Positions 3,045 through 17,917 of a stretch of 34,939 bases of DNA are shown here, piece by piece. The position numbers were made by a program, and so were the translations under genes. Source of the DNA: Gammaproteobacteria bacterium (GTDB lineage Bacteria > Pseudomonadota > Gammaproteobacteria > Steroidobacterales > Steroidobacteraceae); assembly GCA_003134045.1 (NCBI GenBank), contig PLAH01000131.1:1-34939 (forward strand), written 5' to 3'. Below the pieces are notes generated by a model that saw only the letters and a list, made by a program, of their open reading frames with translations, was not told the origin of the DNA and made no database searches. The number at the start of each line of letters is the position of its first letter. Position 1 is the first letter of the stretch.

Positions 3045-3213
3045 TGCTACGTCGTTGTAGGCGCTCAAGGCCGGGAACTGACTGCGTATGCGCTCAACCG
3101 GGAAAGTTGTCACTTCGGGCCTTTGTGCTAGTGGTACCTCGCGCTGTTATGCCCGATTGTCTCGACAGTCACCATCCTCCCCGAGGACGAGGTGCTAGAT
3201 TGGACTGCACTTG

Positions 3214-3340
3214 CTGTCCGAGCTGAAGGAAGTCGCGTCGGCGCGATCGCGCTTGCCGACTTGGATGGAGGTCAGCGCCCTGGTGACCTATGGCTGAGTT
3301 CTTCCAGCTCTCCGCCACCGAACGCTTGGCGCACTCAACG
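3214..3340 (+). pseudogene. Scar of a DUF6088 antitoxin 3' end plus start of its AbiEii-like toxin gene
   Basis: This stretch is a diverged copy of 9655-9780. It reads in frame as SELKEVASARSRLPTWM, then EVSALVTYG and a TGA stop. The intact gene at 9151-9747 has the same protein end with two extra residues (AQ) and SHG at its terminus, so a 6-nt in-frame deletion separates the copies. The match continues past the stop into the first codons of the downstream toxin gene (CCACCGAACGCTTGGCGC versus CCGCCGAACGCCTGGGACGC) and ends near 3340. There the sequence switches abruptly to the integrase-proximal arm of the island attachment site. It cannot encode a functional product. It is read as what remains of an older related island after a large internal deletion. 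Confidence 0.85.
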
Positions 3341-3504
<164 letters not shown>

Positions 3505-3563
3505 TATATGCCATCGTTGGCGTAAGTTGCTGAAAAGTCTGACTATCTGCAAAATACGCGCGG

Positions 3564-3882
3564 GTGGTTCTGCAACGCAGGAGCGCGATCCGCACCGGTT
3601 TACGATGGTCCGCGCCGACGCCGCGAATTTCGGCGGCAGGAAAGAGCGCGCACGGTGCGGCAGTGACCATCATCGCCACCGAGCTGACGAATGCCAGCGC
3701 GGCCGACCAAGACGGCGATGGCTGCGACCTCGCGGCCGGGATGTTCGGGCCCGCGGTCAGTGCGTGGATCCGGAAGATGGCGGCCGACTACCTCACCGAG
3801 CAACGGGCACAACATCACGCGCGACATGGAGGATGACATCGACAGTCTGCTGCTCAATTGGCCCATAACTATTCCGTTGTAG
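3564..3882 (+). pseudogene. Possible decayed small ORF, unrecognised
   Basis: Two frames together give protein-like sequence. One ends IATELTNASAADQDGDGCD, MFGPAVSAWIRKMAADYLTE. The next frame continues from about 3808 as NGHNITRDMEDDIDSLLLNWP and stops at 3882. The acidic, helical ending and the seamless frame switch suggest a small protein gene with one frameshift. I do not recognise the family. The region lies between the outer att copy and the TumE promoter, and it could equally be non-coding. Confidence 0.3.
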
Positions 3883-3919
3883 TTATATACAACAAGGTAT
3901 TGTTGTTATAACCTACAAC
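3876..3919 (+). promoter_or_regulatory. Palindromic operator abutting tumE start
   Basis: Two dyads sit back to back: GTTGTAGTTATATACAAC (3876-3893) and GTTGTTATAACCTACAAC (3902-3919). Together they form one 44-bp imperfect palindrome that ends on the base before the ATG at 3920. A TATAAC hexamer at 3907-3912 could be the -10 element, so the mRNA would have almost no leader. Placement and symmetry suggest autoregulation by the TumA DNA-binding antitoxin or the TumE-TumA complex; that is an inference. Confidence 0.65.
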
Positions 3920-4216
3920 ATGAAAGCCACGAACATAATCAACACAAGGGCGCCGCTCTCAGAGAACGCCTTTGCCGAAATAGTCGTGTGGGAAGTCCCG
4001 AAACGCGTCCCCGGATCTTCCCACGATTTCAAGTATTCGCTTGCGTATGTCGTCAATAATGTGTGCGTGCTGCGACTCGACAACGAAGCCGGCAAAGGGG
4101 ATCACCTGCACTACGGCAACACCGAGTCTGCGTATCATTTCGTTTCGACCAACGCCCTTCTGAATGACTTCTACAGCTATGTTACGAGGTGGAATGATGA
4201 AAACGGTAACGCTTGA
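3920..4216 (+). CDS. tumE: TumE-family toxin (DUF6516)
   Basis: This 98-residue protein matches the TumE/DUF6516 pattern: an N-terminal strand region (LSENAFAEIVVWEVPKRVPGS), then HDFKYSLAYVVNNVCVLRLDNE, the family hallmark GKGDHLHYG, and the ending YHFVSTNALLNDFYSYV. Family members are annotated as toxins of a type II-like pair with TumA; the biochemical activity is not established from this sequence. No Shine-Dalgarno site precedes the ATG because the operator palindrome runs up to it. The 3' end overlaps tumA by about 20 nt, so the two are translationally coupled, toxin first. Confidence 0.85.
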   Translation: MKATNIINTRAPLSENAFAEIVVWEVPKRVPGSSHDFKYSLAYVVNNVCVLRLDNEAGKGDHLHYGNTESAYHFVSTNALLNDFYSYVTRWNDENGNA

Positions 4217-4538
4217 CGTGCGTTCTTTCGAGGACGTGATAGAGGACTCAAAAGCCGCGCTGCGCGCTCGGAAGCCGCAGGGGGCTCGAATCAGTTTCGC
4301 AACGCCGGAGCTGCTGTGGAAAATCTTGACAGTGAAGCGCTGGGAGCTGCTGCGAGCCCTGTGCGGTAAAGAGCCGATGACGCTGCGCGAAGCTGCAAAG
4401 CTAGTGGATCGAGACGTGAAGGTGGTTCACGGGGACGTCACTGCGCTGATTAAAGCGGGCGTGCTCCGCCGCGAAGAGGCGGGCGTCGTGTTCCCGTATG
4501 ACGCGATAAAGGTGGAGTTTTTGGTGCGCGCTGCATGA
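4197..4538 (+). CDS. tumA: TumA-family antitoxin, winged-HTH DNA-binding protein
   Basis: The protein carries the TumA pattern: FEDVIEDSKAALR, then ARISFATPELLWKILTVKRWELL, followed by a helix-turn-helix (PMTLREAAKLVDRDVKVVHGDV) and the ending GVVFPYDAIKVEFLVRAA. It should bind TumE and the upstream palindrome. Two adjacent ATGs (4194 and 4197) lie downstream of a GAGGTGG ribosome site at 4186-4192; 4197 gives the better spacing. A longer reading frame from 4164 would add ten residues with no family support. The start lies inside tumE. Confidence 0.85.
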   Translation: MKTVTLDVRSFEDVIEDSKAALRARKPQGARISFATPELLWKILTVKRWELLRALCGKEPMTLREAAKLVDRDVKVVHGDVTALIKAGVLRREEAGVVFPYDAIKVEFLVRAA

Positions 4539-4687
4539 CGTAAGCCCCAGAACACTCGAAATAACCGCAGGCGAGAAGGCGTTGCGCGACTCGGATTATT
4601 GGATTATTTGACGGCGGAAGCACCGCTCACGCTTCAAGAAATGCTCGGCTAACGTGGGGGGGGCAACCAACCAGGAAATAATTGACT

Positions 4688-4975
4688 ATGCCCAAAATGA
4701 AATTCACTCTAAATAGTCCCGCCAGGGAGCGGTCCATAAAAACCGGGATCGCAGCAGATCCCGACACAAGCGAAGCGAGCCCAGGGGAGATAAGGAAGAT
4801 GAAACCCTTTCGCCCGGGTCGCCCAAAACTTGCCGCGCCGAAGGAACACGTTTCGTTGCGACACGATCAGCAGGCGCTCAAGCACTATCGCGCCACGGGT
4901 GCGGGCTGGCAGAGCCGCGTAAACGCCGATCTTCTCGCAGTCATCACCAAAGCGTCCGCGAAGTCCAAACTATGA
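4688..4975 (+). CDS. Orphan BrnA-like antitoxin
   Basis: The 95-residue protein ends in the BrnA-type ribbon-helix-helix region: FRPGRPKLAAPKEHVSLRHDQQ and HYRATGAGWQSRVNADL. The N-terminal half (MPKMKFTLNSPARERSIKTG, DPDTSE) also resembles BrnA-type proteins. BrnA normally follows the BrnT nuclease, but the 149 bases upstream contain no BrnT reading frame, so this is an orphan or a remnant of a lost pair. AGGA at 4673-4676 could serve the ATG at 4688 (11 nt) or a TTG at 4682 (5 nt). The GxGWQ motif makes the family call fairly secure. Confidence 0.7.
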   Translation: MPKMKFTLNSPARERSIKTGIAADPDTSEASPGEIRKMKPFRPGRPKLAAPKEHVSLRHDQQALKHYRATGAGWQSRVNADLLAVITKASAKSKL

Positions 4976-5093
4976 TTTGAGCGCGCTAAGGAGCACTGGA
5001 CTTACATCCGGCCCGACTATCTCACCAAAGCGTTCGCCGCTTTATCCACAGGGAAAAAAGCGATGCAAGTGATTGATAGTAAGAGAGAAAACG

Positions 5094-5110
5094 TGGAGCG
5101 GGAAACGAGA
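5094..5110 (+). repeat. Internal att-like fragment of tRNA-Gly 3' end
   Basis: Seventeen bases (TGGAGCGGGAAACGAGA) are identical to the tRNA-Gly 3' end at 17842-17858. The following ~20 bases are degenerate (TTCACACTCAGATCC against CTCGAACTCGCGACC). It separates the TumEA/BrnA segment from the ParDE segment and is best read as an old, decayed attachment site. Confidence 0.65.
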
Positions 5111-5252
5111 TTCACACTCAGATCCCAAGCCATTGTAATTGCTAGGTTTCCTGTCCGCCTAGCCTCCAGAATGTCCTAGATTGTGACCTATTTTCGGCGC
5201 CATGCCAACGATGTCCCCGAGAGTCGAGCCGCCATACTAACTTGCTAACGCG

Positions 5253-5282
5253 TTGGCAAAATTTGCCAGATAGCAGTATGCT
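5253..5282 (+). promoter_or_regulatory. Promoter and palindromic operator of parDE
   Basis: TTGGCA (5253-5258) and TATGCT (5277-5282), 18 nt apart, form a plausible sigma-70 promoter. The -35 element lies in a perfect palindrome, TGGCAAA-A-TTTGCCA (5254-5268). ParD proteins are ribbon-helix-helix autorepressors, so this is a likely operator. The -10 ends 6 nt before the ATG, implying a leaderless mRNA. Confidence 0.55.
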
Positions 5283-5288
5283 CTGTAC

Positions 5289-5567
5289 ATGGCCACCATG
5301 AACATTTCGCTCACGCCCCAACTCGAAAAACTCGTCCACGACCGTGTGAAGTCGGGACGATATACCTCTGCAAGCGAAGTCATCCGCGACGCGCTTCGCT
5401 TGCTGGATTCCCGCGACCGAGGCACTGCCCAGCTAAACGCCGATGTGGAGGCGGGCCTGCGCCAACTGGACGCCGGACAATCGCGGCCCTTTGATGCCGA
5501 TGCAGTCGAGCGCATCACACAGGCCGGACGCGCTAAACTGGCGGCGGTCAAAGCCGGCAAGCCTTGA
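5289..5567 (+). CDS. parD: ParD-family antitoxin (ribbon-helix-helix)
   Basis: The 92-residue protein begins with the ParD ribbon-helix-helix (MNISLTPQLEKLVHDRVKSG, YTSASEVIRDALRLLD). A helical toxin-binding tail follows, with LNADVEAGLRQLDAGQS and AKLAAVKAGKP. An alternative ATG at 5298 would drop three residues. It should neutralise ParE and repress its own promoter through the palindrome at 5254-5268. The stop overlaps the start of parE by 4 nt (TTGA). Confidence 0.9.
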   Translation: MATMNISLTPQLEKLVHDRVKSGRYTSASEVIRDALRLLDSRDRGTAQLNADVEAGLRQLDAGQSRPFDADAVERITQAGRAKLAAVKAGKP

Positions 5568-5869
5568 GATATGCGGTCAACTCGGAACTCGCCGAGGCAG
5601 ACCTTGCGGACATTTGGGTAGAGATCGCCACCGACGACATCGACACTGCCGATCGGTTTATCCAAGGACTTCGAACCCTGGCACAGAAACTCGCTGAACA
5701 ACCCTTTATGGGTCGCGTGCGACCCGAATTAGGCCAGGACGTACGAGTGTTTCCGCATGAGCAATATCTCCTCATCTATCGACCAGCGACCCACGGAGTT
5801 GGTATCGCTCGAGTCGTGCATGGTGCTCGCGATCTGACAAGCATCGAGGTGCCAAGGCCTGAAGCGTAG
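5564..5869 (+). CDS. parE: ParE/RelE-superfamily toxin
   Basis: A protein of 101 residues typical of ParE: VNSELAEADLADIWVEIA, then ADRFIQGLRTLAQKLAEQPFMG, and the C-terminal strands VFPHEQYLLIYRP and IARVVHGARDL. Characterised ParE toxins inhibit DNA gyrase; which ParE-type target applies here is not visible. Translation should start at TTG (5564-5566), overlapping the parD stop; the nearby ATG at 5571 is out of frame. The RVVHGARD ending is intact, so the toxin looks functional. Confidence 0.9.
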   Translation: MRYAVNSELAEADLADIWVEIATDDIDTADRFIQGLRTLAQKLAEQPFMGRVRPELGQDVRVFPHEQYLLIYRPATHGVGIARVVHGARDLTSIEVPRPEA

Positions 5870-6014
5870 TGAATCTCCAAAGGACGGAGCGCGTCCCTCC
5901 GCACTTCCGTGGGGAAATGCCAACTGCGCCACTGGTTCCAATTCATCAGGGCCAGCGCATACTTGTTTCGCAGGCACTTGATGGGCGTGACGCGCCTTTG
6001 CCGGAGGGAGAAGG

Positions 6015-6515
6015 ATGCCAAGCCCGTATCGAAAATCCAGATGGAAGCCCAGCGGCTCCGGGTTTCCAAGCGCGGTTGCCGGCGACCGGTCAGCCACCTC
6101 TGTGGGCGTGCAACGACCGCGCAGCCGCGTTCAGAAATTCGCCGAGCACTTGAAACGGAACCCAACTCCGGCAGAACGCGAGTTTATAAGGATCCTCAAC
6201 ACGGTGGATGCTGGCAAGCTTCGCGACACCTTCACGTGTCAACGACGTGTTGGACGCAAGTGGATTCTGGACGTGTTCTTCTTCAAGCAGTGTCTGGGTA
6301 TTGAGATCGATGGCGGCTATCACAGCGATCCGAAGCAACGGCGCATGGACGCATTGAAGGAGCATGCGTGCGAAGAAGCCGGCATAACCTTAATTCGGAT
6401 CACTAATGGCGAGGTCTTCGGTGACCGGGACGTGTTACTGAAAAAAGTGCGAGAGGGCGTGCTGCGGGCGATGCTGCGGGAAAACCCCAAGGGCAGTAAC
6501 CCCTCGAATAGGTAG
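6015..6515 (+). CDS. DUF559 domain protein, PD-(D/E)xK endonuclease-like
   Basis: The 166-residue protein has the DUF559 core: a helix with NPTPAEREFIRIL, then FTCQRRVGRKWILDVFFF (catalytic-type Asp), LGIEIDGGYHSD (Glu, His) and a final helix-strand pair ALKEHACEEAGITLIRITNGEVF. This is the Vsr-like/PD-(D/E)xK nuclease fold; the substrate is unknown. GGAGG at 6003-6007, 7 nt before the ATG, supports this start. The first ~38 residues (SRWKPSGSGFPSAVAG) are basic and not conserved, so a later start at GTG in VGVQRPRSR is possible. It lies between parDE and an internal att fragment. Confidence 0.8.
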   Translation: MPSPYRKSRWKPSGSGFPSAVAGDRSATSVGVQRPRSRVQKFAEHLKRNPTPAEREFIRILNTVDAGKLRDTFTCQRRVGRKWILDVFFFKQCLGIEIDGGYHSDPKQRRMDALKEHACEEAGITLIRITNGEVFGDRDVLLKKVREGVLRAMLRENPKGSNPSNR

Positions 6516-6904
6516 TGCACACAGAAAACAAGGGATGCGAGTGCGACAGCCCATTGGCGAGCGTCGCTGAGCAACCGCGGGGGATAAGTGCATTATCTTG
6601 GCGGAATTGCCAAGCTATGCATACCAAAACTACCGCAAATCATTGACGCCAAAACGAAAGTTTTGGAGCGGGAAACGAGACTCGAATTCACGCTCCATCT
6701 CTTTGAAAAATTAAAATATTTTCGCGATCCAGTCCGATTGCTGTACCGCTTTCGGCGCTTCGGCAACTTTGCGCCTTACGATACACCACCCGCACATCAG
6801 AAGTCGAATGTAATCCCGTTGATGTACCTGGGTATGTACCCCAGAGAAGCGCCCTGGCAATACAGTCTTTATCTTCGGCTCCGCGATCGTCTATCTTGAC
6901 GGCT
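6516..6904. other. Gene-poor stretch with an att fragment
   Basis: No convincing gene is present in these ~390 bases. A reading frame of about 100 codons crosses the tRNA fragment at 6664-6687 and has no recognisable protein character. The part after 6687 is AT-richer than its surroundings and may hold the promoter of the gene at 6905. Confidence 0.5.
6664..6687 (+). repeat. Internal att-like fragment of tRNA-Gly 3' end
   Basis: The sequence TGGAGCGGGAAACGAGACTC and the next three bases match the tRNA-Gly 3' end at 17842-17864. The match then breaks down (TTCACGCTCC against CTCGCGACCT). It separates the ParDE/DUF559 segment from the large AbiE/ATPase/integrase segment. Confidence 0.75.
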
Positions 6905-7201
6905 ATGTCCGAGGAAACAACGACTTTGGGTGTTGACGATAGCCTGCTCGAGTCCGCTGCGCGCTGCCTCGACATGAACAGCGTGCGTGCTTTGAGTGAA
7001 CTGCAGCTGGACGACGCGGCGCGAGCACGACTGGATACCCTGGCGCAAAAGGCGAATGAAGGGCAACTTGCGCCGGAAGAAGCGCGTGAATACGAGCGCT
7101 TCATCAATGTAAGCGACATCATCTCCACGCTGCGTTTGAAAGCAGAGAGGCAAGTCGGCGCTCAAGCGCGTATGTGGCTGCGAGGTTACGATGGTTCATG
7201 A
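6905..7201 (+). CDS. Small conserved hypothetical protein
   Basis: The protein of 98 residues is acidic and mostly helical (VDDSLLESAARCLDMNSVRAL, LDTLAQKANEGQLAPEEAREYERF, IISTLRLKAERQVG). Small proteins with the KANEGQLxPEE-type centre often occur just upstream of HNH nuclease genes, but no HNH gene follows here; the next gene is abiEii on the opposite strand. A TTG start at 6896 is also possible. No function can be assigned. Confidence 0.6.
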   Translation: MSEETTTLGVDDSLLESAARCLDMNSVRALSELQLDDAARARLDTLAQKANEGQLAPEEAREYERFINVSDIISTLRLKAERQVGAQARMWLRGYDGS

Positions 7202-7211
7202 GTACGGTCTC

Positions 7212-8093
7212 CTAGCGACGCGACGACTCACGCAGCTGGTCGAAATCTGACAAAAGTCGCTTGACCTCGCGATAACAACCGTCGAATTCCGGCAGACTCA
7301 TCACTTGCATGCGCAGCCGATCATTCCATCGTTGCTTGAGCGCTTTCTCTACCTGCTCTAGGCGCGGGACCAGCACATCATCTGCGCGGCCTTCGCGGCT
7401 CGCCAGCTTTCGGTTGAGTCCGTCAATCAAATCCTCACGATGCGGGATATGTCCTTCATTGGATATGTACCAGAGATCGTAAAGATCTCGCGGCTCCCGT
7501 CGCGCGCCGTCGGTGATGGCAAGAGTTTTTTCTACGATGATTTCCGGGAACGAATAGACTTGTAGCGACGTGGCGTTCGGCAAATCAGAGAATTCGTCGT
7601 ACGTGCCGAGCACCGGCTTTCGCTCCAAAGCAAAGACCACCGTCTCACCTCGAGTGACATCCACTTTGACTTTATTGCCGACGGGGAGCGGTCCCTTATA
7701 ATCGAAATAGAACGTATCGTTGCGGACGTGTCGAGTGGGTTCGTCATCCGATCGGCGAAATCCAATCTCACTGGCCTCGTATAGCGTGTCGAACACTTCA
7801 TCGAATGCGCTGAATAGGCTTTCGAGAGGGAGATCGCTTGTTAACGTGAAGTCCAGATCCTCAGAGAATCGGTATTCACCGAAATGCACTCGGCGGAGCG
7901 CCGTACCACCTTTGAACGCGAGGGCCTCGGAGAGTACGGGGTGCGAGGCTATCGAGCACAAGAGCCACGCCAAGCGGTAGTCGCGCTCGATGGTGGTTTC
8001 CGGGATGCGCAGCGCCAGTTTCTTGCCGACTCGTTCGCAGGCCTCGACGTACAGTCGATTTGCCAATTTGGAAATGTTCTGCTGCCTGATCAT
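7212..8093 (-). CDS. abiEii: AbiEii toxin, nucleotidyltransferase
   Basis: The 293-residue protein has the AbiEii/AbiGii nucleotidyltransferase motifs in order: FKGGTALRRVHFG, RFSEDLDF (metal-binding DxD type), KVDVT, SFPEIIVEKTLAI and RDLYDLWYI. AbiEii is the toxin of the AbiE abortive-infection system, studied as a type IV toxin-antitoxin system. The start codon directly follows the stop of abiEi (TAG ATG, no gap), so the two are one operon. All motifs are intact. Confidence 0.92.
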   Translation of the reverse strand: MIRQQNISKLANRLYVEACERVGKKLALRIPETTIERDYRLAWLLCSIASHPVLSEALAFKGGTALRRVHFGEYRFSEDLDFTLTSDLPLESLFSAFDEVFDTLYEASEIGFRRSDDEPTRHVRNDTFYFDYKGPLPVGNKVKVDVTRGETVVFALERKPVLGTYDEFSDLPNATSLQVYSFPEIIVEKTLAITDGARREPRDLYDLWYISNEGHIPHREDLIDGLNRKLASREGRADDVLVPRLEQVEKALKQRWNDRLRMQVMSLPEFDGCYREVKRLLSDFDQLRESSRR

Positions 8094-8915
8094 CTAGTTG
8101 CTAACGGCCTTCTGGATCTCCTCGGCGGATACATTCAAACGTAAGCCCCATTTTGGATTGTGTATTCCGGCCATCGGCAATTGCGGGTCTAATTTGACTG
8201 CGCCCGGGAGCAGCCCCGCCTTGAGTTTGGTGACCAGAGCTTCGTCTGCAAGCCCGAGGGTTTCCAGGACAAACCCCATTCGTCGAATGATGGCGGCAAT
8301 TTTCATCCGATGCGCGTAGCCAACTAGCTTGTCAAAGTTGACTCGCGACTTCGCCATGAAAACCGCTTTCGCCACTTCGACCATCCCGCCGCAGTAATCA
8401 GGACGAGCGAATCCGTCAATGAGGGCTCGCTCGAGATCGCTGGCAAATACCGGATGGTTGCTTCCCAGATCGTGAGGGGCAAAGCCAAAGAACTGAGCGT
8501 TTCGGGTGGTGACGAAATGAACCATAGCCCCTCCCAGATTTCTCGTCGGAAGGCGATGGGTTGTACTGACGTACACATCGAACGACGGCTGCGTTACCAG
8601 ACCATGCAGATCCAGAGCAGAGACATGCGACAGATAATAGGGCTTCCCTTCCATGTTGGCGGCGACTATCGCGTATCGATTAGCGAGATGAAAATCGACA
8701 CTCCCCATTTCAAAAGGAACAAGATTGTAAAGACCCCTTCGGATGGGTGTGATTAGTCCGCGCTTCGACGCAGCGTGCAATATCCCCGCTGCGTGAACGC
8801 GGTCCACCTCCATCAATCGGGCAGCGGTATTCAAATCAAAGACCAATCGGTCTTGATCATGCAGTTTCGTGAATAGCAATGAGGTTTTCGGCCCCAAAGT
8901 CTTAGTGGCCTTCAT
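8094..8915 (-). CDS. abiEi: AbiEi antitoxin, winged-helix transcriptional regulator
   Basis: The N-terminus carries a winged helix-turn-helix (FDLNTAARLMEVDRVHAAGIL, ITPIRRGLYNLVPFE), followed by the AbiEi C-terminal domain (YLSHVSALDLHGL, FDVYVSTTHRLPTRNLG, ASDLERALIDGFARPDYCGGM). AbiEi represses its own operon and prevents AbiEii toxicity. I prefer the ATG at 8915 because GAGAG lies 5 nt upstream; a GTG at 8927 would overlap that site. Two tandem operator-like repeats lie upstream at 8933-9032. Confidence 0.9.
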   Translation of the reverse strand: MKATKTLGPKTSLLFTKLHDQDRLVFDLNTAARLMEVDRVHAAGILHAASKRGLITPIRRGLYNLVPFEMGSVDFHLANRYAIVAANMEGKPYYLSHVSALDLHGLVTQPSFDVYVSTTHRLPTRNLGGAMVHFVTTRNAQFFGFAPHDLGSNHPVFASDLERALIDGFARPDYCGGMVEVAKAVFMAKSRVNFDKLVGYAHRMKIAAIIRRMGFVLETLGLADEALVTKLKAGLLPGAVKLDPQLPMAGIHNPKWGLRLNVSAEEIQKAVSN

Positions 8916-8932
8916 GGTATCTCTCACATCGG

Positions 8933-9032
8933 TAATCGATCAATAATCAATTTATGTTGAATATAATATACGACACCCAGAGATAATGCAAATTATTCAA
9001 TGATAATCGACCAATAATCAATTATCGTTGAA
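8933..9032 (-). promoter_or_regulatory. Two tandem operator-like repeats upstream of abiEi
   Basis: A 29-bp element occurs at 8933-8961 and again at 9004-9032, 71 bp apart and differing at about four positions (TAATCGAyCAATAATCAAT, then TTGAA). Each copy has internal dyad symmetry (CAATAAT against ATCGTTG). Work on AbiEi showed cooperative binding to repeated inverted repeats in its promoter, which fits this layout. The region is much more AT-rich than its surroundings. Confidence 0.7.
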
Positions 9033-9110
9033 AACAATAATATTCGAGGAGGCTGCCTGAGGTAGTCGCCCCACGGACGAATGCCCTCCTCCAAAGGATA
9101 GAGTACTGTC

Positions 9111-9130
9111 AGAAATATCACTATATTTCT
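9111..9130 (+). promoter_or_regulatory. Palindrome upstream of the DUF6088 gene
   Basis: AGAAATAT-CACT-ATATTTCT is a perfect 8-bp inverted repeat with a 4-nt centre. It lies 20 nt before the ATG at 9151 and overlaps a possible -10 (TATATT, 9122-9127). It is a candidate operator for the AbiEi-like protein. Confidence 0.5.
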
Positions 9131-9150
9131 ACCACTTCGAAGCTATCGCC

Positions 9151-9747
9151 ATGCAGACCATCGCCAAACAAGTCCTTGACCACGCTGCCGGACTGCCGGA
9201 AGGCACACCTTTGGTCGCCAAAGAACTGTTGCACTTGGGCAGCCGCGCAACCGTAGACCAAGTACTGTCCCGCCTGATGCGGCGTGGCATCCTGCTGCGC
9301 GCCGGCCGTGGCATCTATGTGCTCCCCGTCGAAAGCCGCTTCGGGACCCGCGCGCCTTCAGCCGTCAAGATGGTCGAGGGTCTGGCGAACCGGCGTGGGG
9401 AAACCATCGTGTCGCACGGCGCAGCTGCCGCCAATGCGCTGGGCCTGACCACACAGGTGCCGATGCGAGCCGTTTATCTCACTTCCGGCCCCAGTCGCCG
9501 TTTGAAGTTGGGCGCACAGATGATCGAGTTCCGGCACGCGCCAATTTGGCAACTGATCTTTCCCGGGCGGCCAGCCGGCGAGGTGGTGCGTGCACTGGCT
9601 TGGCTGGGTCCAGAAAAAGCCGGTGAAGCAGTCCAGAAACTACGCGCCAAACTGTCCGCATCCGAACTGAAGGAAGTCGCGTCGGCGCGATCGCGCTTGC
9701 CGACGTGGATGGCTCAAGAGGTCAGCGCCCTGGTGAGTCATGGTTAA
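9151..9747 (+). CDS. DUF6088 family AbiEi-like antitoxin
   Basis: This 198-residue protein begins with a winged helix (GTPLVAKELLHLGSRATVDQVLSRLMRRGILLRAGRGIY). The AbiEi-type domain follows, with GETIVSHGAAAANALGLTT, AVYLTSGPSRRLKLG and IEFRHAPIWQL. DUF6088 proteins usually pair with an AbiEii-type nucleotidyltransferase toxin. Here the partner begins 8 nt before the stop but is truncated after about 38 codons, so this may be an antitoxin left without its toxin. A diverged copy of the 3' end survives at 3214-3340. It is transcribed away from the intact abiE operon. Confidence 0.85.
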   Translation: MQTIAKQVLDHAAGLPEGTPLVAKELLHLGSRATVDQVLSRLMRRGILLRAGRGIYVLPVESRFGTRAPSAVKMVEGLANRRGETIVSHGAAAANALGLTTQVPMRAVYLTSGPSRRLKLGAQMIEFRHAPIWQLIFPGRPAGEVVRALAWLGPEKAGEAVQKLRAKLSASELKEVASARSRLPTWMAQEVSALVSHG

Positions 9748-9854
9748 GTGTCCACCGCCGAACGCCTGGGACGCACTCAACGCCGCAGCTAACACATCGG
9801 GCCTGCTGCCCCATCTACTGGAAAAAGACATCTTGGTGGTCTGGTCGCTGAAAA
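9740..9854 (+). pseudogene. Truncated AbiEii-like toxin, N-terminus only
   Basis: The ATG at 9740 overlaps the DUF6088 stop. About 38 codons give NAWDALNAAANTSGLLPHLLEKDILVVWSLK, typical of the start of AbiEii-like nucleotidyltransferases paired with DUF6088 (the HLLEKDxxVVWxL stretch). The frame then runs into unrelated sequence encoding a PIN-domain end in another frame. The catalytic GG and DxD motifs are missing, so it is non-functional. Confidence 0.75.
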
Positions 9855-10004
9855 GATGCGCTTATGTCCGCTACCGCTCTCGTGCGCGGCATGAGCGTCT
9901 TCACCCGCAACGTGGGCGACTTGGAGTCCACCGGGTTTCTCCAACTGAATTTCCGCGGAAAACAGGGACGCGCCAGCCTCCATTTGATTAACCTAAGCCG
10001 ATAG
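9855..10004 (+). pseudogene. VapC-like PIN-domain toxin, C-terminal remnant
   Basis: In the third frame from 9855 the sequence reads DALMSATALVRGMSVFTRN, VGDLESTGF, QLNF and ends at TAG 10002-10004. This is the ending of VapC/FitB-type PIN ribonucleases (third acidic residue of DALIAATA, then the TRN motif). Everything upstream is missing and has been replaced by the AbiEii fragment. No vapB is visible. Confidence 0.6.
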
Positions 10005-10012
10005 GTTATTCT
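9984..10012 (+). promoter_or_regulatory. Promoter of the DUF4160/DUF2442 operon
   Basis: TTGATT (9984-9989) and TATTCT (10007-10012) are 17 nt apart. The -10 ends 5 nt before the ATG at 10018, so the transcript is probably leaderless. Inverted repeats AACCTA/TAGGTT (9990-9995, 10002-10007) and GATAG/CTATC (10000-10015) lie across the spacer and -10 and could be operator sites. Confidence 0.6.
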
Positions 10013-10017
10013 ATCAC

Positions 10018-10458
10018 ATGAGTCGGGTATTCATCTCTGAGGCGACAGGGGCCGGGATCTACGTCTTCTCGGACGACCATTGTCCGGCGCACGTCCATGC
10101 TCGACACCGCGGTGAGGGCTGGATCGCACGCGTGAGATTCTCTTACCTCAGTAGTACGCTGGAACTGATCAGCATTGCCCCGGTCAAGAACATTCCTCTA
10201 CAACGCGTAGTGAACCACCTCTTGAGCGATGTTCAGGAGCGACTACCGGATTGTCGGCGCAGCTGGTGGTTGACGCGAAGAACAACTTGTTTGGTTAATC
10301 AGTGGGCCGTGGTGGACGAACATGGAAGAGTCGAGCTTCTCTCGAAACCCACCCAGAGTGCGAAGCAGATCGCCGAGGCTCAGTACGATCCCGCGAACGA
10401 GCAGCTTCGCGTGGTCTTTCGGGATGGCACAACGGAAGAGGTGAGATTACGACGATGA
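10018..10458 (+). CDS. DUF4160 domain protein with DUF2442-like tail
   Basis: The N-terminal half fits DUF4160: SEATGAGIYVFSDDHCPAHVHARH with the HVHAR hallmark, then a strand WIARVRFSYLS and a helix near VNHLLSDVQERLPD. The last ~35 residues (KPTQSAKQIAEAQYDPANEQ, RVVFRDGTTEEV) resemble DUF2442. DUF4160 and DUF2442 genes are commonly paired and suspected, though not shown here, to be toxin-antitoxin-like. The stop overlaps the next gene by ATGA. Confidence 0.7.
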   Translation: MSRVFISEATGAGIYVFSDDHCPAHVHARHRGEGWIARVRFSYLSSTLELISIAPVKNIPLQRVVNHLLSDVQERLPDCRRSWWLTRRTTCLVNQWAVVDEHGRVELLSKPTQSAKQIAEAQYDPANEQLRVVFRDGTTEEVRLRR

Positions 10459-10898
10459 ACACACAACCGATCAGCGATGCCGAGTACGCCACGGCGCTTG
10501 TCACCGGCCGAGCCGAATCAGAGACCGAAATTCGGGCACAAGCCGCTCGCTACGTCCCTGAGCGGGATGCCATCGAAATCGTCACGAACCGTAATGCTGG
10601 CTTCTTGATTCCACGGCAGTGGATCGGTGCACTACAGGACGTGCCAATCGAGGAGCTGGGTAATCTCGAAGTGTGGCCAGACGGCTCGGCGATCGAACTC
10701 GAAGACCGAGACATTCACATCAGCGTCCACGGTCTCCTGACGGCGATCTTGCCTGCAATGCTGCCCTCGCGAACCGTCGCCGCCATCTTTGCGAGCCGCG
10801 GCGGCCAAGCGACCTCGCGCGCGAAGCGGCTCAGCTCGAAAGTCAACGGTCGCAAAGGCGGTCGACCAAGAAAGAGAGCAACGGCTGACGTCACATGA
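10455..10898 (+). CDS. DUF2442 domain protein
   Basis: The 147-residue protein has the DUF2442 core RDAIEIVTNRNAGFLIPRQWI, then LGNLEVWPDGSAIELEDRDIHISVHGLL. A basic C-terminus follows (SKVNGRKGGRPRKR) that could contact DNA. The ATG at 10455 overlaps the upstream stop (ATGA), and the stop in turn overlaps the next start (ATGA), so the three genes are one translationally coupled operon. It would be the antitoxin-like partner if the pair acts as a toxin-antitoxin system. Confidence 0.75.
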   Translation: MNTQPISDAEYATALVTGRAESETEIRAQAARYVPERDAIEIVTNRNAGFLIPRQWIGALQDVPIEELGNLEVWPDGSAIELEDRDIHISVHGLLTAILPAMLPSRTVAAIFASRGGQATSRAKRLSSKVNGRKGGRPRKRATADVT

Positions 10899-11474
10899 CT
10901 TCAGCGCGCTCGCAAAGTCGCGTGACCGACAACTATCAGTTGCTGCGCGCCGCAATCGACGCCCCAGACGGGTTCGGCCGATTCGAACATCGCAAGATGG
11001 TCGAAGATGTTGCGCGCAAGTACTCTCACAGCATCGTGTACCGGCCTCGAGAAGGAAGGTACATGCGTCACCTACGCGCTCGGGTTAACCGAAGACGCCA
11101 TCTATCGGTTCGTCGCCACTCGCTTTCAGCGAAAGATATTTGCAGGTCGCGACCTCATTGAGTGGTTAGTTCAACATCACCTGCGAGAGATTGAACCTCC
11201 GTACTCGCACTGCCTCGCGCTATATTTCTCGGATAACAAATGGGAGCACGTCGGTGTCGTATCTTCGGCCGGACGAGTCGTCTCCCAATGGGGGACTTTC
11301 CCAGTCTACGACCACCCTCTTTTGGAAATTCCAGCCCGTTACGGCGATGCAGTTCGCTACTTCCATTCACCTGGGAAGGCCGAAGCTCTTCGACTGTTTC
11401 TTGAGTACGCCAAAACATGGGGTCTGTCCGACAGCGACATTGATGTCGCAATACGTGCGGCCGGCGACAAATGA
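10895..11474 (+). pseudogene. Hypothetical protein with possible Cys-His (papain/NlpC-like) fold, frameshifted
   Basis: The start at 10895 overlaps the DUF2442 stop. The first frame reads NYQLLRAAIDAPDGFGRF up to SIVYRPREG, and the sequence then continues in another frame from about 11055 as TCVTYALGLTEDAIYRF. Together they would make about 190 residues. A Cys followed by a helix (TCVTYALGL) and a later WEHVGVVSSAGRVVSQWG resemble the Cys...His arrangement of small papain-like or NlpC-like proteins such as DUF7689; this is pattern-based inference. The ending is LRLFLEYAKTWGLSDSD. Whether the indel at 11050-11060 is real decides if the protein is made. Confidence 0.5.
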
Positions 11475-11803
11475 TTATCGGGAAATTCCTACAGTTTTTC
11501 GACAGCTGGTCTTTTGAGTCCGGTTGGACGGAATTTCCATACTGAGTGCTCGGGACGGGTTTCCTTGCATTGTGGAACGAGGTGTTATTCCTCATCAAGC
11601 CGTCAAAGTGTTTAGTTGCAAAGTCGGTACCGGCGGTGCCGGATTATGGAATCTGAGAGAGCCATACACATTCTCTCCTGACTTTTTATGTAGATATTAT
11701 CACCGGGAGTATTTTCGCGACGGCGACGGCCATTTGGTTGTTGCGTTCCGTCGAATATCAGCGGGACATGCCCGCGCAATCGACTAATGGGCAAGGAAGC
11801 GTT
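11475..11803. other. Intergenic stretch before the ATPase gene
   Basis: These ~330 bases show no recognisable gene; an 87-codon frame starting with TTG at 11524 lacks protein character. AT-rich sequence at 11680-11705 could contain a promoter for the downstream ATPase, but I cannot fix one. Confidence 0.4.
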
Positions 11804-14800
11804 ATGGGAACATCGTTATCAGAAGCAACCGGGCTACTGCTGACCGGCAAGAAGCTTGCCTGGAACAAGCATAAAGATCACAAGGCAGGATCAATCGCGC
11901 TCGACAAACCCGAACAGCGTCGCTTGCTTGAGTTCCTGCTGGCGGCCGATTCCAACAAAGTTGCCAGCGGCGACGAAACCCTATTCGCAGGACTCCTCGC
12001 AACGTGGGAAAACATAGACCATGACCCGGCGAAAACTAAAGCCGCAGGCGGCGGCAAAGCCAGCACACAATCGTGGCGGCTAGACCGCATCGAGGCTTTC
12101 GGCTTTGGCGGGTTGACAATCTTTGGTGGCAAACCGTTCGACCTCTACATTGGCGGCAGCAACTGGTGTCTCGAGGGCCAAAACGGCTCCGGTAAAACCT
12201 CCCTCGTGAGCGCGATCCTATGGGCGCTGACAGGCAAGCGCATCCGCGAACATGAAGGGCCGGTAGACGAGCGCGGTGCACGCGAGGATGTCCTAAATGA
12301 CGATGGGACAAGAATCGGGAACTGGCCGCCGCTGGCAGCCTACCCAATGAGCATCTCGGACCTCGGAAAGCAAGCCGAAGTGTGGGTGCGGCTTACCTTC
12401 AAGGCAGCGGACGGTGATATGGCAATGGCCTATCGCCGAATGATTAGCCCCCCGCTTGGCGACGCGCAGCTCGAAGAGCAGATTGATCCCCAGTTAGAGA
12501 CGGCGCTCCGCCTTGCTGAAATCGGCGTCTTGATGCCGGCGCGGCTTACTAAGATCGGCTTCGGCAAAAACAGCCTAACACTCTATGAGGCGGTTAAGCA
12601 GCTTACGGGGCTCGACCAGCTGTCCGATGTTGCCGAAGGCTGCGCCGCCTTCGGAGCCGGTAACCGCAAGTTCATGAAGTACGCCAAAGACCAAGGCATC
12701 GAGAATTACGAACGCAGGTTCGCAGAAAGTATTGCCAGCGCGAAACAATTGGCAGAGGAATTCGAGTTAAAGCTACCCGAGGTAATCGGTCTCGGGGAAA
12801 AAAATATGGATGTAACGCTCAAGGAGGCCGCAAAAATGGCATCCGAGGGCGCGGGGAAGCATCTTGAGACCCTGAAAAGCGAAATCTCCGCGACGATCGA
12901 CACTTCCACAGCCGAGGGACGCAACGCTGTCAAAACGGCAGTGTCGAGTGCGCGCGGACTAGTCACACAGGGACCGAAAGCTGTTCCCCTATTTCAGACC
13001 TGGAAGGCCCTGACGGACGCCGCTTCGGACGCTGGTTTCGCTAGCCTACCGGTCGCGTTGGAAACGGCCAAGGCGAATATAACCACAGGTTTGGAATGGC
13101 ACAACCGCCAGACAGCTGACGGCAAGCTGCGACTCAAGGCACTGGCTGCACAGAGCTTCACTCCCGTGAAGGGCGCCGACGCCGATTGCCCTCTGTGTAC
13201 GGCGCCGCTCGATGACGAAGCAAAGAGGGCGCTGTCGGTCGAGTTGGAAGAGCTGAAGACGAATGCCGCCGCCGCCGAGAGAAAAATCGCCGACGTGTGT
13301 CGCGGGATCCGAGAGTCGGTAACGCGAACGTTGCCTAACTCTATAAGCGATTCACGGACCTCGATCGACAAGATGGACCCCGCGGAATCGTACGTCACCG
13401 CTGTGCAAGAGAAGTTCGTCACCGACAAGCCATTCTCGAGCATCCTGACCGGGCTCGCCTCCTCGGTGAAGGCGCGAGTCGAGAGCCAAAAGAGCGATCT
13501 CCCTCACTTCACCTACGGGGAATTCAAGCCGACAGACGACGAGCCGGAGCCGGTGACGAAGCTGCGGCATGAAATTCATGTACTAGAACGCCTGATCGCG
13601 CTAGTGAAGTGGTGGAAGACTGCCCGACCGGCTTTCGGCAACGCATGGAGCGCGATAATTGGCAAGAAGCAAGAGGACGGAACTTTACCGGCCGACAGCG
13701 TGGAAGGTAAACTGGTTGTGCTTGAGCAAGCGTTGGAGCACGCCCGGCCGCTCGATGATTTATCCAAGCACCTAGGCAACGCTGCAGCGACGGTAGCGAC
13801 CTGGGACCAGATTGTCGCCGCGCAAAAGACGCGAGAAGCGATCAAAGAGGCGCTGGAACCCCTCAAGGCCTTGCGACTACTAGTCGCAGCGGAAACCGCC
13901 AGCTCTATTGCCACGCTGTCGGGCACCATCAATTCAATCTGTGAGCGAATTTGTTTGAAGGAGCGACTTGCTTACGAGCAAGCAGTCATTGGCAGGAAAG
14001 AAATCAGCGTTACCGGAAGTTTCACCCCTGGCATGCGCATCGACGCAGCCCTCGTCGCCAACACTTCGTGGTTGCGCGATCCTGTGGTCGTTCGTCTTCG
14101 CCCTCCGTGAAGAGACGCTTAATGCAATGGGTTTCAATCCACTACCACTTGTGGTGCTTGATGATCCGCAAGGAACCTTCGATCCGCGCAACAAGCGCAA
14201 ATGGGCACAGGAGTTGGTGCGCAGTGCCAACATGCCGACCGCCGGCCTTCTCAGCTCGCAGCTCATCGTGGCGACGCATGAACGTAATTTCTACCAAATG
14301 ATGATGGATCACGAAAAATTCAGCGCACAACAAGGCCTCATAGGTGGCGTGAACAAGGTTTCCGGCGTCGCTACAATCGCCAATGGCGGCGAACTTCAGC
14401 GACTGTATGACGAGGCAAAGAAAAATAACGACGACGCCAAGGCCCGCGAATTCATCCGCAAGGTCCGCATTTACTGCGAAGACTTGATCAAGTTTATGCT
14501 GCGCAGCGTCAGCAACCAGATCCCCGATATGACCCTTAACAAGCTCAAAGAGGAACTGAAAAAGCTGTGCAAAGATCATGTCGCTCCTTTCGATCGGAAG
14601 GCGTTCGACGGGCTTATCAGCGCCCTTAACGAGAGCCAGAAAGCTATTCAGTATATCAACGAGCCCCACCATAAAGATGATGAGAGCTTCGGTGTCGCCG
14701 AGGCCGACACGGTCAAGGAATACTGGGACAAGACGCTGCTCGACAAAATCCACGCTGCTTTCGTCGTCTTCGACAATTTCGAGCTATACATGGGTGAGCC

Positions 14801-15668
14801 GCGCACTTTTTCGTGGGCGAAAAACATCATCGAATTCCCGGATGGCTACAGGAGCAAAGTTAAAGAAGCCGAAATGCAGCAGACTGGCATCGCCGCAGCA
14901 GCAAAAACTGGCGGCCGTGCTGGCGACGGCATCTTAACCGTGAATGAATGGGACGCGGGCGAAAAAATTACACTGCCGAACCATGATGTATTCCAACTTG
15001 CGGCTGGCACTCTCGACCCTGTTGCGAACGTGGGCGACATCATCATCGTCAGCAACTATGCGACGATTAACCCACGCAACCTGGTGGTGGCTGCCTGGGG
15101 CAGCATGCTGTTGGCACGCCGCTTGAATAAGCCTGACAATCACTCAGAGATTGCTGTCTTGACCGGGCAAGCCGTCGATCCGTACGCGTTGCCCCAACCA
15201 GTGATCGTACAGCCCGACACAAATTTTCGAAAAATCGTCGGCACGATCTTCACGTCGCATCTTCTGCCTGTGCCGCCGATTGACCCCGAACGCGAGTTCG
15301 TCGCGGTTCCTGATCCCAATATCCTAGATAAAACGCTGAAAGGCGCTCGACTGTTTAAGGTCGAGGGGCGGAGCGCCGAGCCCATTGCACTTGAAGGGCA
15401 GTTTCTTATCACCCGCAACAAACCTGTGAAGCCCGACGCCATGGCCGCTCTCGATGGACGACTGGTTGTCGGCATCGATGAAGACGGCGCGCGGTATTTC
15501 AAGCGACTTCGCTGTCACCAAAAGATCGTGGTGCTGGAGAGCCTGAACCCGGACGGGCAAACCGCGGCACAGGTTCTGAGCTTGGACGGGTCGCATTCCT
15601 TGCCGAAAATCATGGAGGCACTGGAAGTCATTGGAGTTCTATTTGAGTTGCCAAGCGCGAAATCATAG
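11804..15668 (+). pseudogene. Large SMC/Rad50-like ATPase with C-terminal LexA/CI (S24)-like domains, split by a 2-nt frameshift
   Basis: With the frame restored the protein is ~1288 residues. AAGGAAG 4 nt before the ATG at 11804 fixes the start. In order: an N-terminal ATPase lobe with P-loop GQNGSGKTS (~125); a long helical arm with a central CPLC (462-465), like the Rad50 zinc hook; then a C-terminal lobe with Walker B VVLDDPQ (Asp codons 14160-14165) and H-loop IVATHERNF. The frame changes at 14074-14078: TTGCGC|GATCCTG fits LR-AILWSFVFALREE only if GC is restored. After a helical region, two LexA-like units follow. The first (~14940-15255; VANVGDIIIV, NLVVAAWG, LLARRL) lacks the catalytic pair. 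The second (~15285-15600; FKVEGRSAEP, LEGQFLITRN, GRLVVGIDEDGARYFKRL) keeps a Ser (15372) and a Lys (15501) 43 residues apart, as in lambda CI. Defence role and peptidase activity are inferred. Confidence 0.75.
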
Positions 15669-15693
15669 GCCAGAAGCGCCTAAGGTTCCCGGA

Positions 15694-15712
15694 GCGGTCC
15701 GCTATTTTTTTT
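15694..15712 (+). terminator. Weak terminator after the ATPase gene
   Basis: A short hairpin (AGCG-GTC-CGCT) is followed by an 8-T run at 15705-15712, about 40 nt after the ATPase stop and between convergent genes. The stem is very short, so the call rests mainly on the T run. Confidence 0.35.
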
Positions 15713-15779
15713 CCTCTTCTGCTTGTGTGTGACAGCGATCGACGGACGCGCGGCCGGTGTGCCCCATCAACCGCCCTCC

Positions 15780-17597
15780 TCAGTTCAAGCCTAACGCGAT
15801 CAACACCGCCCCCGCGGCCTCGTTAATGTTTTTCGCAGTGACAACATCCACGGGCGAACGCCCCTCTGGTCCCGCCAGAGGTTCTGACAAGGCTCGATAG
15901 AGGGTCCACGCATCAACTTCCGTGCGCTGCAGGACGGTATGAATCAACTGCAGACGCACGGGATCAAGCTGCCAATCGGGGATTCGCTGCCCTCGATTTC
16001 CGATGTTCAGCGATAAAAGACGACGGCCTTGGATCTCTCGGTTGATCTGATGGCGGGACTTCCCAGCCAACTTGGCGAACACGGGTAGTGGCAGATTGTG
16101 CGGCTCTTCAAACATCGCCAGCATCTTGGCACGCTCGCGCTGGATGTCCGTGAGTGCGGGTTGAGGACGCTGGTCAGTACGCGAAACGATCATCATCACC
16201 GCCGGTGTCATCGGCATCACGCTTGAACCGTTTGAAGCTTCCGGTGTTCCTGTGCCAAGGCTTGCCCCTTCATAATGGATAGGGCGCCCGCCGCCCTTCG
16301 TGGAAAGCTGTGACCCCACGATTTGAACAGATTCGGGCGCGGACATTGCGGCCGCTCCCGGGCGACCCTGACTCTCCCACTGGTCCAGCCGATCCGCCCA
16401 GTCCTGCATCATGCGTCGGCGCTGTTCGACGTACTCCGCATGGTTGAAAGCCTTCCTCACCTGATTGGGATCGGTGTGCGAGAGTTGGGCGTCGATCCAT
16501 TTCGTGCCGTAGCCGATTTCATGCAGCGCGGTGGAAATCGTGGCGCGTATGCCGTGTCCGGTCAGTTGGTCTCGGTAGCCCATCCGGTGCAGTGCACGGT
16601 TGAGCGTATTTTCGCTCACCCGCTCCTCTGGGTCACTGCGATGAGGTAAGAGATACCGTGCGGCTGGGGGTTTTGCCTCCAGCAGTTGCCGAACAATCGC
16701 GATGACCTGCCGGGACAGCGGCACAATGTACGGCGCAATGTCTTTAGTCTTCCAGACGCAGACGTTGTTGAAGCTGTTTCACCATCACGGGCGGGATGAT
16801 CCAAAGCCCGCGCTCCAGGTCGAACTGTTCGGCATCGCCGAGCGCAACTCGCCGGTTCGTACGCCCGTCAGCAACAACAGCCGCAACCCCGATCGCGTAG
16901 TGAGGTCGCCACCGTACTTTCACAGCTTGCACAAAAATGCCGGCAACTCCTTTATGCGCAGGAAGGGATTGTGCGTGACCGGGGCCTGGGGTATCGCCAC
17001 GATGTCGAGATCGTTGGCCGGATTGGTCTCCAGGTTCACCTCCACCATCGCGTACCGGAACAGCTGGTTCAACCACGTCCGACACTTCTCGGCCGTGGTC
17101 AGGGCATTCCGCCGCTCGATCTTGCGCAGCACCTCCACCAAGTCCCTCCGTGCGACGTCGAAAATCGACCGCCGACCGAGGGTGGGTAGGATGTCCTTGG
17201 CGAAAATCCGGTCGATCTGCGAGAGCGTGCTTTGGCGACCGGTCTTTAAGCTCAATGCTTTGAAATCGCGCCACAAGTGAAAGACGGCCTCGAACGTGGT
17301 CGCGCCCGCGACTTGGGCTGCCGTGCGCTCGCACAGCCGACGAGCGCGCGGATCGATGCCTTTGGCCAACAAGGACCGAGCTTCGTCCCGCCGGGCACGG
17401 GCGTCTCTCAAGCCGATTTCCGGGTATCTGCCGAGCGAAATGCGCTGTTGTTTGCCGTCCCAAGAGAATCGGAAGTACCAGTACTTGGTGCCTTTGGCTC
17501 TGACAAAGAGTGACAAGCCATCCAAGTCGTTGAGGGTGTAGTCCTTGCCCTTGGCCCGAGCCAGCCGGACGGTGGTATCCGAAAGTGCCATATCCAT
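15780..17597 (-). pseudogene. Tyrosine-type integrase (DUF4102 type) with Xre/MbcA-like C-terminal domain, inactivated
   Basis: This is the island integrase, reading away from tRNA-Gly. The N-terminal DUF4102-type domain is clear (ARAKGKDYTLNDLDGLSLFV, GKQQRISLGRYPEIGL), then the core-binding domain. The catalytic parts are GVRTGELR, GHGIRATISTALHEIGYG, LSH and FNHAEYVEQRR. Three lesions interrupt it: a TGA at 16920-16922 within KL*KYGGD (probably once CGA), a missing base near 16843 after GELR, and a frame change near 16744 before KDIAPYIVPLS. Beyond the recombinase, ~190 further residues include a helix-turn-helix-like PVFAKLAGKSRHQINREI and an ending like the MbcA/ParS domain (DAWTLYRALSEPLAG, GRSPVDVVTAKNINEA). 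AGGAG precedes the start; ATG 17591 (MALSDTTVR) is an alternative with better spacing. The island cannot excise on its own. Confidence 0.85.
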
Positions 17598-17721
17598 CTT
17601 CTCCTGCTTGTGAACAGGGTCAGATGATCATCTCGGCGCCCACTGCTCTCAACCCAAAAACCGGTGCGGACTATACCCGATTTTATGTACTGATTTATGT
17701 ACTAAAAAGTCGTGGAAGTCG

Positions 17722-17841
17722 GTGGATTTCCCTGGAACTCAGTGGACAATATTGGGTAATGTCAGAGGGGTCAAAACCCCTAGAGATCAACGACTTGTGG
17801 ACTTCCATGGACTCGCATGGAACTCAGCAGAACAAAATAAT
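17722..17841 (+). repeat. Integrase-proximal att arm with short repeats
   Basis: This 120-bp arm lies between the integrase start and tRNA-Gly and is repeated at 3341-3458. It contains several copies of TGGAAsTCrGTGGA-like and TGGACTTCCATGGA-like motifs plus an inverted repeat GGGGTCAAAACCCC. These are probable integrase arm-binding sites. Confidence 0.7.

Positions 17842-17917
<76 letters not shown>

Follow-up and report, generated by a model that had tools for sequence, protein, structure and literature searches.

What is the product of a gene that joins a Rad50-like ATPase to a pair of domains resembling the self-cleaving part of LexA, and how might it act? The question is raised by a gene at positions 11804-15668 (forward strand) of a stretch of 34,939 nucleotides, here called the window, from contig PLAH01000131.1 (positions 1 to 34,939) of assembly GCA_003134045.1, a Gammaproteobacteria bacterium of the Steroidobacteraceae. 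An initial annotation, made from the sequence alone, described an SMC/Rad50-like ATPase fused to tandem LexA/CI-like units. Those parts are upheld by our analysis but the description overlooked a HEPN-like domain of about 180 residues between the Walker B motif and the S24 units. With this domain the protein is better described as a toxin of the RloC type that carries an S24 module than as an ATPase with a protease tail. RloC couples DNA breaks to tRNA cleavage. On balance we regard the protein as an RloC-type ABC-HEPN toxin that has gained a tandem LexA-like module. If the module acts as a switch, the toxin would be governed by SOS-type proteolysis inside its own polypeptide, to our knowledge the first LexA-type switch within a toxin.

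Gene architecture and the tandem S24 tail

The gene is carried on two open reading frames (ORFs) in two frames, with one frame shift between them. The N-terminal piece (11804..14110) encodes a small N-terminal region, the ATPase N-lobe and a coiled-coil arm with a hook; the C-terminal piece (13968..15668, with homology from about 14076) encodes the ATPase C-lobe, the HEPN-like domain and S24 units 1 and 2. Both match, end to end, a single continuous protein of 1290 residues from a Sphingomonas plasmid (L003), the N-terminal piece with 44% identity to residues 1-760 and the C-terminal piece with 49% identity to residues 750-1290. The nearest relative found, in a Methylocystis assembly (L019), shares 81.8% DNA identity over 3866 bases, and 87% identity with the C-terminal piece. 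Nucleotide comparison with it reveals a single frame break near 14,070-14,080, about where the ABC-signature-like motif ANTSWLR (14057..14077) is placed. The ratios of non-synonymous to synonymous substitution (dN/dS) against this relative are low, 0.150 for the N-terminal and 0.086 for the C-terminal piece, from which it follows that purifying selection acted on the window gene until a short time ago. Either this copy has since lost its frame or the break is an assembly error, intact copies being present elsewhere. The window copy, which lies on a decaying island, is probably silent because its frame is broken.

Among 84,980 species genomes scanned, 36 relatives were found, and plasmid searches gave 6 and 15 records with relatives, overlapping in part. 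The fetched set comprises 36 genome loci and 11 plasmid records; the plasmid matches H10-H12, H14-H16 and H20 are not among these. The first alignment consists of 40 loci and the window. Removed ahead of all counts were L006 (99.8% identical to L005), L004 (the L010 locus), L047 (the same as L002) and L052, for which a re-check gave no match. Sets A2 and A5 hold 30 sequences each and omit the plasmid loci, L010, L014, L032, L035 and L037-L039; alignment A3 holds 26 sequences. The relatives, on plasmids and in genomes, are mostly intact and about 1300 residues long. At 35 of 41 loci the open frame measures 1290-1404 codons from one stop to the next, and five plasmid members added later have lengths of 1304-1337 residues. 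On the plasmid of Phyllobacterium sp. 628 (L004/L010) an inserted sequence, which we take to be an IS3-type transposase gene, splits the relative in its 5′ part.

The set of motifs expected of an ABC ATPase is present, namely Walker A (GQNGSGKTS, 12176-12202), the signature, Walker B (VVLDDPQ, 14151-14171) and the His switch. The Pfam model AAA_23 matches the window gene at 6.2e-10 with 40.5 bits against a cut-off of 27, and DDPQ of Walker B is kept in 41/41 sequences. The arm carries a CPLC motif (13187-13198) reminiscent of the Rad50 zinc hook, and Rad50_zn_hook matches the N-terminal piece at 6.3e-4, under the Pfam cut-off. A CxxC motif, predicted to bind metal, occurs in 37 of the 39 aligned sequences with letters at this position and in all five of the further plasmid members; the exceptions are the interrupted gene of L010, and L037. 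The ATPase, its Walker motifs and the hook were all correctly located in the initial annotation, which also placed the two S24-type units and the Ser and Lys codons of the second.

Peptidase_S24 is matched in two stretches of the window gene (2e-7, 31.2 bits against a curated cut-off of 23.3) and, at E 0.1, in 28 of the 30 C-terminal halves taken from family members. Unit 2 (15231..15560) contains VEGRSAEP (15360-15383) with the Ser codon at 15372 and YFKRLR (15495-15512) with the Lys codon at 15501, 43 codons apart, a spacing that equals that of Ser149 and Lys192 in lambda CI. Across the first alignment the separation is 42-48 residues. Both residues are retained in 38/39 sequences of the first alignment, in 5/5 further plasmid members and in 4/4 further genome members, which is 47 of the 48 sequences with letters there; the lone exception, L037, has a C-terminus that does not resemble the family any more. 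Unit 1 (14895..15130) is degenerate. In the window gene it has lost both residues, as first suggested, with Thr (codon 15009) and Arg (codon 15117) in their place. The wider family refines that statement, as Thr and Arg, 36-37 residues apart, are found in 41/41 sequences of the first alignment and the Thr is replaced in distant members. The five further plasmid members have Ser (three), Asn (one) or no clear equivalent (one) at the Ser/Thr position, and the four further genome members Thr (two), Gly (one) or Asn (one).

The two units are homologous. Alignment with hhalign gives P 5.1e-5 (prob 67) against 0.25 for a reversed control, and pairs AGTLDP of unit 1 with GRSAEP of unit 2, and ARR with KR; L010, L037, L038 and L039 were excluded from this run and from the earlier comparisons with PrrC and RloC. 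An AlphaFold model of the L019 C-terminal half (631 residues, mean predicted local distance difference test score (pLDDT) 78.5, predicted template modelling score (pTM) 0.47) has only four Foldseek matches with E ≤0.001, all to SMC/Rad50 heads. LexA and lambda CI entries follow (3k2z_B, 8s7g_A, 1jhe_A and 2ho0) with E values of 4e-3 to 8e-3 and prob 0.99-1.00. For RecA-bound LexA (8s7g_A) the values are E 4.7e-3 and prob 1.00, with a root-mean-square deviation of 2.3 over 101 columns. A search of PDB sequences that used just the S24 part yielded no informative match. That the S24 match arose by chance is rejected on the basis of conservation, fold and unit-to-unit homology. Two outcomes that would have spoken against the initial annotation, a modelled C-terminus lacking the LexA fold and homologues lacking the Ser and Lys, were not observed.

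Since the unit-2 dyad is strictly kept while unit 1 drifts, the sequence evidence is best read as indicating an active enzyme in unit 2 and a pseudo-enzyme in unit 1. The resemblance to LexA, lambda CI and UmuD extends to the fold, the Ser-Lys dyad and the GxS..P and KR motifs of unit 2. The family differs from these proteins in having two tandem units, the first degenerate, in an N-terminal partner that is an ATPase-HEPN body and not a helix-turn-helix domain, and in the uncertainty of the Ala-Gly site. A candidate LexA-type cleavage position, assigned only by analogy, is the Ala-Gly in GRAGDG ahead of unit 1 (14919..14924). AGDG is found here in 14/18 rows of one subfamily, and AG, VG, SG or LG in the other. 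In the group other than that with AGDG, the opening stretch of unit 1, for example VVGRLAARAAGAPL, is similar to the cleavage-site strand of LexA.

The middle domain and its probable relation to RloC

About 180 residues separate the His switch from S24 unit 1. We consider it probable that this segment (14334..14891) is a HEPN-like ribonuclease domain of the RloC/PrrC type. Six columns are invariant here in alignment A3 (239 columns) and three of them are an Arg and a Glu, spaced as Arg-x3-Glu, and a His. This predicted catalytic triad, at 14466..14480 (Arg-x3-Glu) and 14670..14672 (the His, in INEPHH) of the window, is kept in 41/41 sequences of the first alignment and in the 5/5 and 4/4 further members, 50/50 overall. 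The corresponding motif of RloC is Arg-X3-Glu-X36-52-His, and alanine mutants of each residue are inactive (PMC2610378). The nucleases of RloC and PrrC are themselves classed as HEPN in a survey of that superfamily (PMC3710099).

Profile comparison supports this relationship. The segment from Walker B to the HEPN part, which includes ATPase sequence, aligned with 11 RloC-like proteins at P 1.5e-5 in a first hhalign run and, with a 22-member family set, at P 3.8e-8 (prob 95.0, 213 columns); the HEPN part alone then gave P 0.0018 (prob 15). This set was smaller than the first, contained five more diverse members and had somewhat different cut points. The family Arg-x3-Glu is paired with that of RloC and the His of INxxHH with the His of INrxSH. 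Reversed controls gave 0.69 in the first run and 0.41 in the second. A control with five close SbcC sequences gave P 0.019, its C-lobe alignment reaching no further than the ATPase. A separate model of the middle domain (187 residues, pLDDT 77.3, pTM 0.71) has HEPN entries at ranks 1, 2, 4 and 5 in Foldseek (best E 0.32, prob 0.77). The search gave 115 matches at E 10; the best 50 of these include 12 whose titles name HEPN, and a further 6 are toxin-antitoxin entries of the MntA-HpeT type, which are HEPN-MNT pairs. A profile search against PDB sequences and a hidden Markov model search of 398 genomes returned only the family itself and L048, a weak match that resembles an ABC-F protein and is taken as chance.

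The family shares with RloC a Rad50-like ATPase split by a CxxC coiled coil and followed by Arg-x3-Glu...His. There are differences of size and extent. The family proteins have about 1300 residues, whereas the 11 RloC-like ORFs span 725-796, stop to stop, and RloC ends after the nuclease domain where the family adds a tandem S24 tail of about 270 residues. PrrC displays the same order of triad residues, and the ATPase C-lobe matches the PADLOC PrrC model in 15/30 members (best 4e-7). PrrC lacks a hook insert, and a type I restriction enzyme linked to it keeps it silent (PMC2610378). With SbcC/Rad50 the family has in common the ATPase head and zinc hook, and SbcC/SbcD-type genes lie beside some members. 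SbcC/Rad50 proteins are not known to have a HEPN domain or S24 tail. Lamassu LmuB, the SMC-like ATPase of a defence system, is also similar, with a PADLOC match of 1.3e-8 to the N-terminal piece that is strongest around the P-loop (residues 123-162), but matches only short motif stretches, and no LmuA was identified by PADLOC among the nine window proteins.

According to the initial annotation no named antiphage system is known to have this build, and the searches are in line with it. Among the matches listed, no model in PADLOC 2023 covers the gene, the hits (LmuB, mad3, PbeC, PrrC) being confined to short ATPase or coiled-coil stretches, and assignment to a known defence system was rejected. 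No NCBIfam model reaches its cut-off on the window gene. Among the matches listed in literature searches, whose coverage leaves out most subscription journals and preprints, there is no publication on a fusion of RloC or an SMC ATPase with S24/LexA, and the words LexA, S24 and UmuD are absent from the main text of two recent surveys.

Proposed function and competing explanations

How could these parts work together? RloC is described as a break sensor combined with an effector, which is activated by linear DNA and by inducers of breaks and held active only while on DNA ends (PMC3874168). By comparison with it we infer that the Rad50-like head and the zinc-hook arm would sense DNA ends, an ATP-driven change in the head would free the HEPN domain, and the HEPN domain would cut RNA, most likely tRNA anticodon loops, to stop translation. 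The C-terminal S24 pair may then read a second signal of DNA damage. The RecA filament is the usual trigger of S24 self-cleavage in LexA, CI and UmuD. Unit 2 would be an active LexA-type protease that cleaves its own chain by means of the Ser/Lys dyad, presumably when stimulated by a RecA filament on single-stranded DNA. The dead copy, unit 1, would create a built-in dimer and perhaps supply the loop at which the cut is made. The tail would come away from the body of ATPase and HEPN domain on cleavage. The likeliest place for a cut, we suppose, is ahead of unit 1, so that the tail is released in one piece, because the LexA-like strand and AGDG are found at the start of that unit. With respect to direction we favour release of an inhibitory tail, which would switch the toxin on, over destruction of the toxin, which would switch it off. 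Such an arrangement points to a defence by cell suicide that is coupled to the response to DNA damage. In its most specific form, which we offer tentatively and regard as less likely than not, this would be a two-key abortive-infection toxin, in which DNA ends open the head and a RecA filament leads unit 2 to cut the unit-1 loop, freeing the HEPN tRNase, in some genomes beside nucleases of the Mre11-Rad50 type.

Several observations weigh against this proposal. The LexA matches of the L019 model all have E values above 0.001. Conservation of the Ala-Gly that precedes unit 1 is incomplete, and the family alignment has no obvious Ala-Gly before unit 2. In the middle domain the Glu and His are separated by 57-67 residues, outside the range of the RloC motif, no Pfam HEPN model matches at E 1 and the Foldseek E values for HEPN entries are weak, none being ≤0.001. 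The HEPN part was not significantly similar to PrrC in the first hhalign comparison, and taken alone against RloC it gave P 0.04 in the first run, the stronger hhalign figures having been obtained after the family set and cut points were changed. The window's genome has no match (E 1e-8) to either of the two metallophosphoesterases tried, nor to any of the three neighbour proteins tried, and 25 of 39 loci, some with short flanks, are without an Mre11-like neighbour. Given these absences, an Mre11-like partner is not required. No neighbour is universal and an obligatory partner was rejected.

Would the same toxin be better explained with the S24 cleavage as an off-switch? DNA ends would activate it and the RecA filament of the repair stage would destroy it, confining toxicity to the period until repair starts. 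Cleavage of LexA and CI inactivates the host protein, which counts for this version. Neighbours of the SbcCD/YhaON type fit with it also, as end processing leads to RecA loading, and RloC activity is said to end once the DNA end is repaired (PMC3874168). A cut ahead of unit 1 would however leave the ATPase-HEPN body whole, and we judge this version rather unlikely. A different view of the tail is that the S24 pair serves as a scaffold for dimerisation or RecA binding, the Ser and Lys being structural and the protease not working. The persistence of unit 1 without a Ser/Lys pair indicates that a non-proteolytic unit can be maintained, and it is in keeping with this that unit 2 is not preceded by an evident Ala-Gly cleavage site. 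Nevertheless, a dyad intact in 47 of 48 sequences, beside a unit 1 that in distant members drifts at the Ser position, is the contrast expected under catalytic selection; we find the scaffold explanation unlikely.

The remaining alternative concerns the middle domain, which might be a structural helical bundle in a DNA-end sensor of the Rad50/Lamassu kind, regulated by S24 and using Mre11-like nucleases as effectors. The HEPN statistics are weak taken alone, LmuB is the best defence-model match to the N-terminal piece and Mre11-like genes do occur nearby. Yet the Arg, Glu and His account for half of only six invariant columns, they align with the mutationally tested triad of RloC, and most loci have no Mre11-like neighbour. 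Such a bundle therefore appears improbable. An RloC-type toxin with a LexA-like module thus remains our preferred description. The combination of the RloC plan, a conserved LexA-type Ser/Lys domain and a pseudo-protease twin would offer a testable link between RecA signalling and immunity that stops translation, and the family may bear on how RloC toxicity is limited or committed.

Distribution, island and gene neighbourhoods

The family is sparse. With the window's own genome included, relatives are present in 2/398 genomes of the phylum, 1/23 of the genus and 5/200 of the bacterial family, one of these five being the weak match that failed the re-check (L052). No relative was found in viral contigs (67 pattern stretches were checked) or phage records and an origin from phages or viruses was rejected on that ground. 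The midpoint-rooted tree has two groups, and pairs the window gene with L019 (support 100/100); one row labelled Nitrospirota and one labelled Acidobacteriota occur among the remainder. Mixed labels would be as expected for mobile genes, with the caution that genome bins can be contaminated.

A mobile defence setting, proposed at the outset from AbiE and an integrase, is borne out by an island at a tRNA-Gly gene. The probable target, tRNA-Gly (gcc), is at 17842..17917 on the reverse strand. The right end repeat of the island (17766..17887) overlaps this gene and the left end repeat (3383..3504, 122 nucleotides) is 93% identical to it. Next to the RloC-like gene is a tyrosine integrase on the reverse strand (15783..17597), identified with Pfam and divided between two ORFs, one with the arm and core domain (16923-17597), the other with the catalytic domain (15783-16724); with its integrase split the island is probably no longer self-mobile. 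An AbiEii and AbiEi pair lies at 7212..8927 on the reverse strand (PADLOC 2.3e-67 and 4.6e-69). A second AbiE locus on the forward strand (9151..9991) consists of AbiEi (9151-9747, PADLOC 3.6e-66) and, in the place expected of AbiEii, an ORF of 83 residues with no Pfam match at E 0.001.

A tRNA-end-like sequence of 43 nucleotides occurs in four copies, at 3445, 5080, 6650 and 17828, with 65-100% identity to the reference copy. These copies suggest that insertion took place three times in tandem at a single tRNA-Gly gene; the last insertion (6650-17828) would hold the two AbiE loci, the RloC-like gene and the integrase. The 3′ end of the second AbiEi (9661-9749) is repeated at 3217-3299 (96% over 52 nucleotides and 84% over 32 nucleotides), just left of the left end repeat, and is a remnant of another copy. 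At 3920-4535 on the forward strand the first insertion carries an ORF that resembles the TumE toxin and, after it, one of HVO_A0114 type; the two probably form a toxin-antitoxin pair. The second insertion has a DUF559-type ORF (6015-6512, forward strand) that also matches REase_MTES_1575 under the cut-off.

Around the relatives the commonest neighbour is a metallophosphoesterase of the SbcD/YhaO type (Mre11-like), within 10 kb at 14 of 39 loci, followed by YhaN-like (6), SbcC-like (5) and DUF3320 (3) genes; L010 and L006 are outside this count. Thirteen of the 14 also carry an SbcC-like, YhaN-like or DUF3320 gene, in varied arrangements. Annotation adds the Phyllobacterium locus and L088, for a total of 16 of 45 relatives' loci, the window excluded. 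Background searches, which matched 27 and 47 places in sets of 150 genomes, lead to an expectation of 0.07-0.58 among 39 loci, although the Poisson treatment takes kin loci as independent (L008, L029 and L032 are close kin) and uses a rough density, which overstates the contrast. Together these neighbourhoods hint at Mre11/Rad50-type gene pairs in defence modules. Of the 111 ORFs scanned around relatives, individual models for AbiEi or AbiEii have matches to as many as 3 (best 25 of 153 families), and Shedu is among the other neighbours.

Two further arrangements may be mentioned. On a Pseudomonas veronii plasmid (L085) a distant member at 1771-7869 follows SLATT and reverse-transcriptase genes, and the three are possibly one defence operon. 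In L007, L033 and L043 a gene for a protein of about 2000 residues, annotated DUF3320 in L007, lies directly upstream on the same strand, with a metallophosphoesterase gene further upstream on the opposite strand.

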